Made by a program: the position numbers and the translations under genes. The notes below the pieces were generated by a model. The model was not told where the DNA came from. It did not search any database and saw nothing but the letters and a program-made list of their open reading frames with translations. From positions 1 through 55,334 of the forward strand of contig NZ_JASCXW010000011.1 in assembly GCF_030012175.1 (NCBI RefSeq): a stretch of DNA of 55,334 nt. Reading direction: 5' to 3'. Shown piece after piece: positions 22,400-39,513 of the stretch; position 1 is the stretch's first letter; the number at the start of each line of letters is the position of its first letter. This DNA is from Peloplasma aerotolerans. Lineage in GTDB: Bacteria > Bacillota_I > Bacilli_A > Acholeplasmatales > Acholeplasmataceae.

Positions 22400-24790
22400 A
22401 TGAGAATAAGAATAGGAATAATCTTCATTTTAATAGTTTTGAGCATGACGATTCTAATGGGGTGCACCCAAAATCAGAATGTGAATTTATTGCTCAATGA
22501 GAAAAATGACCAAGTTCAAATTGGTATTGGAGGACAATATTATTTTGAGTTTAACAAGGACCAAGATAATTGGTCATTTAGTGGTGTTTTCGCAGGAAGA
22601 AACAATGAACTTTTATTTGATTCAATGGATGGAAGCTTTTATCGTTTTTCTCCACTGCAGTTTAATCAAGAAAATCCAAACACTTCATTTGATGATCTAA
22701 TTGAAGAAATCAATGTCATTCAAAATGAAGATGATATTAAGCAAATAGAAGTGAAAAATAGTCAGGTAACGATGGTACTTACCGTAGACAAAAATTCACA
22801 TTTTATTGAACGTTCATTTACGTTGAATAATCAAAATGATAACTACCTTGCAGATTTTCAACTTAGTTTTGCTTTACGTACCAATGCAAATTTAATTGAG
22901 CGTGAATACGGAGCAATCGCAACCAAAGATCCAGGTATAGCATTTGCAGATGTACCTTATGCGTTTCCAGCTATTTACACTAAATTATTTTCAGCAGACT
23001 ATGAATACAATGTAATCAATGTTGTTGATTATATTAATTCAGATTCAGTCTTTGGAAAGATGAGAAAACGTAAAGTACAAGATCAATTTGAATTAGGTGT
23101 TACATCTAAGTCCGGTGATTTTAAACAAGGGACATATCAATTCACCGATTATTGGTCAATTGATCAAGAAGATTCAAGTTATTATGAACTTATTGGTAAA
23201 GCAGCTTCTAAATATTTAGATATTAATCCAATTCCAGTTGATGATATTGCAGCACTTTCTAATTTAGTTGCCCCATCTTTTGATTTAATCGTTGAGGGAC
23301 TTTATAAGAATCTGACAGATCCAAGAACTGGTGTAAAAACACATCATGGTGCAATGAAACCATATGGTTACATGGAAGACTTTGGTGCTGGCTGGGCTGA
23401 AAGTTTTGTTTTACTCGATACAACAAAAGGCATGTTGCGTTATGCACTCACTGAAAATGATTCTGAAAAAATAGCATATGTTACATCTCTTATAACACAT
23501 TTAACTACGAATCATGGCGATGGAGAGAGTTGGATTGCGCCTTATACAGGCAATGACGCCAAAAGCGATGAATATTTTTTACATCATACTTATGCGAATC
23601 GAGTATTCGGGAACAATTCATCCGGTGAAGAAACTGGGTCAAGAGTTGGTATCAGTGGATGGAAGTATTATGATATGCTTGCCAATCTTGCGGATTTGGC
23701 AGCAATTACAGAAGATGAAGGAGTTACAGAAGGTTTCTTGAAACTTATGCCATTCTTAAACACACTTAAACTAGACAATTATGTACAGCCAGTTGCTTGG
23801 TATTATGATACACGTCTACCAGCATCAGGACATGATGATGGTGGTAGTGCTGGTAATGCTAGTACATGGGCATACATCCATCTTATGGCTTCAACATTGT
23901 CTGAAGACCGAGGTTCATATTATCAAAGCGAAGGACTTAATTCTCTAGATTACGCAAATAGCATGGACTATTTTAACATGACAGCGATGCGCGTTGCAGT
24001 AAAACCAGTTGTTCTCGGATGGAATGTTAGAGCTAATTTATTAGCATATGATTTAACCGAAGAACAAAAATATTTGGATCAAGCTAAAATAACAGCTCAA
24101 GGTTTATTATCTTTTTACTACATCAATTCCAATCCTAGCACATATTTCGCTTCATTAGGATTTGGTTATGCAGATTTAAGAGAACGATGGGAAGCATATC
24201 TTGAAATGGCTCAATCCATCTGGTTAATTGCACCAGTTATGGAGCATATGAAGGATTTCACGCCACTTCTTGATCTATTCTATTCAGCATCAAAAACATA
24301 TCTTTATGCATTCCCAATTAATGGTAATCCATATGGGAATTATCAAAGAGTTCCAGGTTATGATGCACTTGATGGTTATTATATTCCTTTTGAGTTTGCA
24401 ACAGGCGTTTTAGTTGATAACCCTGGTAATGAAGGTGGCTCGCAATCTGCCTATCGTCAAGTTAAGGAAATATATGGCTCAGGCGAAGTTTTCTTAAACT
24501 ATTTGATGTTTGAAGCCAACGGTCGCGCTGTAAATCCCAAATTGCTTATGCTGAACTTAACAGGAGCATACAACTCATTTGATAGAAATGAACACTCATT
24601 TGTATTTTACAACCCATCTAGCGATAGCCAATCATCTGTTGTCATCTTTGATTTTATGGAAGATGGGAATTATGAAATCACATTAAACGGCGTCTCCATT
24701 GGAACGTTTACATTTGAGGCATTAAATCGAGGTATTGTACTAAATATTAATGCTAGAGAATCGATTATTATCGATGTTAAGAAAGTGTAG
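22400..24790 (+). CDS. lipoprotein enzyme of unrecognised (alpha/alpha-toroid-like) family
   Basis: The 796-residue protein starts with a lipoprotein signal peptide (lipobox LMGC, Cys22). Residues about 30-260 look like a beta-sandwich. The rest is dominated by helices rich in aromatic, Trp and Gly motifs, as in alpha/alpha-toroid glycosidases and polysaccharide lyases. I do not recognise a named family. A clear paralogue lies in the same operon (36412-39513); the two share PYGY, ESF.L.D..KGML.YA, NY.QPV....DT.LP..G...GGSAG, RERWEA.LEM, NGNPYGN and [16 protein letters not shown]. Conserved acidic, Arg, Tyr and His residues in these blocks are likely catalytic. An endo-acting glycan depolymerase anchored on the cell surface is the best inference. 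The ribosome site is GGGAGG. Confidence 0.75.
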   Translation: MRIRIGIIFILIVLSMTILMGCTQNQNVNLLLNEKNDQVQIGIGGQYYFEFNKDQDNWSFSGVFAGRNNELLFDSMDGSFYRFSPLQFNQENPNTSFDDLIEEINVIQNEDDIKQIEVKNSQVTMVLTVDKNSHFIERSFTLNNQNDNYLADFQLSFALRTNANLIEREYGAIATKDPGIAFADVPYAFPAIYTKLFSADYEYNVINVVDYINSDSVFGKMRKRKVQDQFELGVTSKSGDFKQGTYQFTDYWSIDQEDSSYYELIGKAASKYLDINPIPVDDIAALSNLVAPSFDLIVEGLYKNLTDPRTGVKTHHGAMKPYGYMEDFGAGWAESFVLLDTTKGMLRYALTENDSEKIAYVTSLITHLTTNHGDGESWIAPYTGNDAKSDEYFLHHTYANRVFGNNSSGEETGSRVGISGWKYYDMLANLADLAAITEDEGVTEGFLKLMPFLNTLKLDNYVQPVAWYYDTRLPASGHDDGGSAGNASTWAYIHLMASTLSEDRGSYYQSEGLNSLDYANSMDYFNMTAMRVAVKPVVLGWNVRANLLAYDLTEEQKYLDQAKITAQGLLSFYYINSNPSTYFASLGFGYADLRERWEAYLEMAQSIWLIAPVMEHMKDFTPLLDLFYSASKTYLYAFPINGNPYGNYQRVPGYDALDGYYIPFEFATGVLVDNPGNEGGSQSAYRQVKEIYGSGEVFLNYLMFEANGRAVNPKLLMLNLTGAYNSFDRNEHSFVFYNPSSDSQSSVVIFDFMEDGNYEITLNGVSIGTFTFEALNRGIVLNINARESIIIDVKKV

Positions 24791-24798
24791 GTGAAACC

Positions 24799-39400: not shown

Positions 39401-39513
39401 TAGCATCTCATGCTGAAAGTATGAAGGTACTCGCAATACGATTAACAAACCAACAACAATACCCTAAATACGCAGAATACAAACAATGTAAGGAGGATGA
39501 TTATGAAAAGTGA
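36412..39513 (+). CDS. cytoplasmic paralogue of the toroid enzyme, with C-terminal beta modules
   Basis: This 1033-residue protein has no signal peptide. Residues about 1-160 form a beta-rich N-terminal domain, and 170-610 a catalytic region matching the lipoprotein at 22400-24790 block by block (PYGY, GGSAG near residue 370, [11 protein letters not shown] near 483, NGNPYGN, GGSQS and KEIYGSGEV near 570-585). A C-terminal extension of about 400 residues adds a fibronectin-like part and a sandwich similar to the Trp-type modules of the surface lipoproteins. It probably finishes the digestion of imported oligosaccharides. I cannot assign a reaction. Starts overlapping the isomerase stop and ends overlapping the next gene's start, so the three are translationally coupled. 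Confidence 0.75.

Follow-up and report, generated by a model that had tools for sequence, protein, structure and literature searches.

Two paralogous proteins of Peloplasma aerotolerans, a surface lipoprotein (protein A) and a cytoplasmic relative (protein B), probably stand for two lineages within an unclassified family of enzymes that cleave glycans; glycoside hydrolases, with a GH76-like toroid behind a beta-sandwich, are the likeliest type, and the gene cluster of A and B would provide for the self-contained utilisation of a mannose-rich, possibly O-acetylated polymer. We put the probability of this reading at about 0.6. In its favour, we count the homology between A and B, the conservation of the cluster (whole in one other organism, mostly kept in a second), the separation of the A and B clades, the GH76-like toroid, four conserved carboxylates (E602, E665, D673 and E696; A numbering is used throughout), mannose-related neighbours in three loci and a lack of uronate-processing genes among the neighbours scanned. 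Homology, predicted localisation, synteny, the fusion of A to a neighbouring lipoprotein, the toroid fold and the families of the neighbouring genes were all computed from the window (i.e., the whole stretch of 55,334 nucleotides analysed) and from related loci.

A paralogous pair in a glycan-uptake cluster

Both open reading frames singled out by the original prediction are real, and belong to a 12-gene cluster (20782-41613) encoded entirely on the forward strand with intergenic gaps of 72 nt or less, an arrangement that fits a single predicted operon, next to a divergent regulator gene. A promoter scan scored no better than shuffled sequence. In order, the genes are:

19640-20665, reverse strand: LacI-family regulator, divergent from the cluster (Pfam; orthologue at the corresponding position in zrk7 and in G426, see below)
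20782-22389, forward strand: SASA-type acetylesterase with lipobox LLTAC (Pfam SASA, 5.5e-18; lipobox from the sequence)
22400-24790, forward strand: protein A, surface lipoprotein of 796 aa, family unclassified by Pfam, NCBIfam and PDB sequence searches
24799-26769, forward strand: lipoprotein P0003, which forms a fusion with A in G1202 and G1179 and is a probable functional partner of A
26784-31517, forward strand: repetitive lipoprotein P0004 with Ig-like domains (Pfam), a probable glycan-binding partner
31590-32972, forward strand: extracellular solute-binding protein (Pfam, 4.4e-27)
32980-33912 and 33884-34819, forward strand: two ABC permeases (Pfam)
34821-35867, forward strand: GH130a, close to the beta-1,2-mannobiose phosphorylase Lin0857 (Pfam, 2.3e-55)
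35870-36415, forward strand: D-lyxose-isomerase-like protein, a probable mannose isomerase (Pfam, 6.7e-6, above cutoff)
36412-39513, forward strand: protein B, cytoplasmic paralogue of 1033 aa (core, residues 1-683; additional C-terminal part, 684-1033)
39497-40621, forward strand: GH130b, hydrolase-like, without the basic phosphate-binding residues (sequence comparison)
40618-41613, forward strand: PfkB-family sugar kinase (Pfam, 1.1e-25)

The likeness of A and B is not due to chance, since BLASTP aligns them over 662 residues at 34% identity (365 bits, E 2e-116), and this alignment takes in every conserved block quoted when the two were proposed to be duplicates. They are the only two copies of the family in the 2.04-Mb genome. 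The proposed division into a lipoprotein and a cytoplasmic enzyme also holds at the level of prediction: A begins with a signal peptide and a lipobox (ILMGC, Cys22), while B carries no signal peptide, and the start of its gene overlaps the upstream gene by 4 nt. Neither protein gave a significant match to Pfam, NCBIfam or PDB by sequence, and matches to P2_C, DUF5844 and RepL were dismissed as chance. The family had been described as unfamiliar, and the hit to an established family that was to speak against this did not emerge from the profile search. Judged by sequence, A and B form a family outside Pfam and NCBIfam, which may coincide with an existing CAZy family.

The C-terminal addition of B, about 340 residues (window 38461-39510), is weakly similar to P0003 (E 0.0027, probability 11%, score 32.6 vs. 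a maximum of 25.8 in 60 shuffles), with a common E-K/R-KYP...R...G-Y block. This is only suggestive of a P0003 domain in B; were the likeness real, B would be a single-chain version of A plus P0003. P0003 and P0004 are themselves similar at the profile level (7.9e-5), and P0004 contains a ~300-residue unit in three copies (a 900-nt repeat, at spacings of 900 and 921 nt), all of which carry a WPK / GGTWK motif.

Among the intracellular enzymes, GH130a aligns end to end with Lin0857 (E 9.8e-106), a known beta-1,2-mannobiose phosphorylase (PMC8950772), with the residues at the K, R and YHG sites preserved. It falls short of the NCBIfam equivalog threshold (453.6 vs. 550), which makes its exact product no more than probable and counts against our reading. 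GH130b is related to both beta-1,2-mannosidases and phosphorylases; its HRR and YHG positions are replaced, whereas the ED motif and the KINGK lysine region are retained, and the hydrolase group of GH130 likewise lacks the basic phosphate-binding residues (PMC4599007). The proximity of GH130a to Lin0857, together with the isomerase and the kinase, is why we read the sugar as mannose-type. A regulator, a surface enzyme, an ABC importer and intracellular enzymes thus occur in one cluster, as in glycan-utilisation loci of the Gram-positive type, and A and B, proposed as duplicates within one operon, are ancient paralogues among 12 same-strand genes of a glycan-uptake cluster.

Two further groups of genes lie on either side. 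A divergent cluster on the reverse strand (43425-48666) encodes a ManD-like D-mannonate dehydratase (below cutoff), an SDR dehydrogenase, an SMP-30 lactonase, an aldo-keto reductase and a Gfo/Idh/MocA protein, which might together oxidise mannose or a different sugar next to the mannoside operon. At 11837-18220, a gene for a Zn-dependent alcohol dehydrogenase precedes those for E2, E3 and a dehydrogenase E1 with fused alpha and beta parts; the set may be an operon of the acetoin/2,3-butanediol or pyruvate dehydrogenase kind.

Predicted fold and conserved residues

An AlphaFold model of A built from 13 sequences (pLDDT 80, pTM 0.86; an earlier model from 4 sequences, at pLDDT 44.5, was unusable) comprises a beta-sandwich (residues 30-255), a 12-helix (alpha/alpha)6 toroid (261-704) and a beta domain (716-795). 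In structural alignments, GH76 alpha-1,6-mannanases come closest to the toroid (Z 22.7, rmsd 3.2 over 305 residues, 10% identity), followed by epimerase and mannose-isomerase toroids (Z 18-19), with no further (alpha/alpha)6 family above Z 17 among the matches listed. A viral fold library yielded low-TM whole-chain matches only, mainly to GH65. In the PDB, the family profile likewise gave the top rank to GH76 chains, though at weak scores (E 0.005 and 0.23) and across generic helix-repeat stretches, and none of the 13 members matched the GH76 Pfam model at E values up to 10.

Two short features of A bear on its relation to GH76 and on the search for an active site:

23627-23632, forward strand: acidic pair E410-E411, before toroid helix 4 and near the putative equivalent position of the GH76 Asp pair
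24464-24487, forward strand: KEIYGSGE motif (residues 689-696), conserved better than any other block in the family

Catalysis in GH76 depends on two adjacent Asp (PMC9213526). E410-E411 is invariant in the six close members only, is replaced by V-D in G1202, and the distant relatives described below carry no acidic pair; because the Asp-Asp pair is not conserved, we do not file A and B under GH76, and this too counts against our reading. Ten residues are invariant in all aligned members covering the site: Y324, Y573, E602, E665, T668, D673, K689, Y692, E696 and N738. Of the shared acidic, Arg, Tyr and His residues that the original prediction took for a likely active site, Tyr and acidic residues are invariant family-wide, and Arg and His are common to A and B. 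The His part of the proposal fails on conservation, as not even the six nearest members have an invariant His in common. E665 and D673 sit in loops with pLDDT <50, a further point on the negative side, and for this reason we name no catalytic pair.

Relatives in other genomes

Relatives were sought with protein and profile queries in sampled genomes (1,981 genome searches, some genomes repeated). The whole cluster recurs with unchanged gene order, its proteins 46-81% identical, in the Mycoplasmatota bacterium zrk7 (G415, CP076021.1). There (L010:18161-19711, L011:3-2152), stop codons interrupt the gene of A and the SASA esterase is split into two frames, while the intracellular genes are intact; this would reflect either errors in the sequence or a decay of the components outside the cell, the intact copies being those of the window and of G426. 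The latter, an uncultured Firmicutes (CASDTU010000089.1), keeps LacI, A, P0003, P0004, the solute-binding protein, the permeases, B and both GH130 genes, with isomerase and kinase matches absent from its locus. Between its GH130 genes (L017:1705-3901) lie two URO-D/MtaA-like methyltransferase-family proteins, for which a role with a methylated sugar or a cofactor is speculative. GH130a, GH130b and the A/B pair thus stay together in three organisms, and a tree of their A and B proteins places the two in separate clades, so that either the duplication predates the split of the organisms or the cluster was passed on as a whole.

Beyond zrk7 and G426, the sampled genomes yielded just two further groups. 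The nearer one (G1202 and G1179, which belong to the same order as G426) has an A-type protein fused to a P0003 homologue (fused part vs. P0003, hhalign E 1e-41 over 597 columns), a fusion from which it follows that A and P0003 probably act together. The G1202 locus encodes GH3, GH38 and GH92 proteins and a protein with a lyxose-isomerase domain, and no GH130 within the stretch read. The distant group comprises relatives of about 900 aa from five high-GC genomes of one small class, linked to the close members by hhalign (probability 97.3%, E 2.2e-11, 416 columns; score 99.8 vs. a maximum of 32 in 30 column shuffles). Their genes adjoin a LacI-like regulator and importer genes, and then a GH5-like gene; the product of the latter (L026:12789-14798, L027:1092-3062) starts with an NYWPR motif and is possibly another mannan enzyme. 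A scan of genome contigs with A alone, a scan of viral contigs and a tblastn search of plasmids gave no match, and three short matches from an initial search at phylum level (L003-L005, E about 1e-4) were discarded after they vanished with the profile. Mannose appears to be the common theme of three of these loci, through GH130a, GH130b and the isomerase in the window, GH3, GH38, GH92 and the lyxose-isomerase domain in G1202, and the two GH130 genes in G426, with partner enzymes that point to different linkages.

Competing readings, pathway and known systems

The architecture of A also recalls polysaccharide lyases, and this likeness counts against our reading: the BACCELL_00875 lyase resembles the whole chain (Z 18.6 over 501 residues; Foldseek E 1.5e-10), and PL26 the beta-sandwich (Z 17.4), so that A and B might act by beta-elimination on a uronate-containing mannose polymer via conserved Tyr and Lys, for which Tyr324, Tyr573, Tyr692 and Lys689 are invariant candidates. 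However, the whole-chain rmsd is 8.5, the toroid alone matches GH76 better, and no unsaturated-uronyl hydrolase (GH88/GH105) or other uronate-processing gene was found among the scanned neighbours in the window, G426 and G1202 loci. This last result is why we favour hydrolysis over elimination, and we regard a lyase as unlikely. An epimerase or isomerase akin to AGE/cellobiose 2-epimerase, with mannosyl sugars as substrates, would account for the second-ranked toroids, but that family relies on conserved His residues, which the six close members lack as invariants, an epimerase would be odd as a surface lipoprotein, and the Z score for GH76 is higher; we judged this very improbable and rejected it for want of an invariant His.

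A more specific form of the glycoside hydrolase reading, compatible with it, would make A an endo-beta-1,2-mannanase and B a beta-1,2-mannooligosaccharide enzyme, both feeding GH130a and GH130b. The closeness of GH130a to beta-1,2-mannobiose phosphorylase, the kinship of GH130b and the retention of the A/B pair with both GH130s in three organisms all point this way, whereas the G1202 relative lies beside GH38 and GH92, which are alpha-mannosidases, in a stretch without GH130. This variation in partners, from beta-mannoside enzymes in the window to alpha-mannosidases in G1202, weighs on the general reading as well, and we hold the beta-1,2-specific form to be rather unlikely.

For the pathway, we infer glycan cleavage by A and B, its hydrolytic mode, the substrate, the linkage and the order of cutting. 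The SASA esterase would remove acetyl groups, and surface-bound A, with P0003 and P0004 as putative glycan-binding partners, would cut the polymer. Oligosaccharides brought in by the ABC importer would then be cut further by B in the cytoplasm, GH130a would phosphorolyse beta-1,2-mannobiose to mannose 1-phosphate and mannose, and GH130b would remove another beta-mannosyl unit. As originally proposed, A may be the endo-acting and B the exo-acting enzyme. As judged from family function, the isomerase and kinase would convert free mannose to fructose 6-phosphate.

GH130 phosphorylases for beta-1,2-mannosides occur in anaerobes, and a literature search for an endo-beta-1,2-mannanase found none; in Thermoanaerobacter, the source of the oligomannan was reported as not identified (PMC4264767). 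A family kept beside GH130 genes, with one member outside the cell and one inside, is a direct candidate for such an enzyme. That the pair represents a new glycoside hydrolase family including an endo-beta-1,2-mannanase upstream of GH130 beta-1,2-mannoside phosphorylases is a doubtful proposition at present; if confirmed, it would add an enzyme family to mannan degradation and imply that wall-less relatives of the Mollicutes are able to run a complete polysaccharide system.

Of known systems, the GH76 endo-alpha-1,6-mannanases (6y8f, 4mu9, BcGH76) resemble A in their (alpha/alpha)6 toroid and extracellular mannan context, but differ in sequence (10% identity, no Pfam match) and in the Asp-Asp pair, unconserved in the A family, which adds a beta-sandwich, a C-terminal beta domain and a cytoplasmic paralogue. 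The BACCELL_00875 lyase (5no8) and PL26 (5xqg) appear to have a similar sandwich and toroid architecture, at the high whole-chain rmsd given above, but their catalytic residues are unmatched in A and uronate genes are absent near its family. The Thermoanaerobacter locus Teth514_1785-1796 likewise combines two GH130 genes and an ABC importer for beta-1,2-oligomannan, but also includes a GH5 gene and genes for GDP-mannose, and its description mentions no A/B family (PMC4264767). In the yeast-mannan loci of Bacteroides, GH130 (BT3780) likewise acts on beta-1,2-mannose within a mannan-use locus (PMC4599007), whereas the cluster described here pairs an ABC importer, in a wall-less relative of Gram-positive bacteria, with an unclassified candidate depolymerase.
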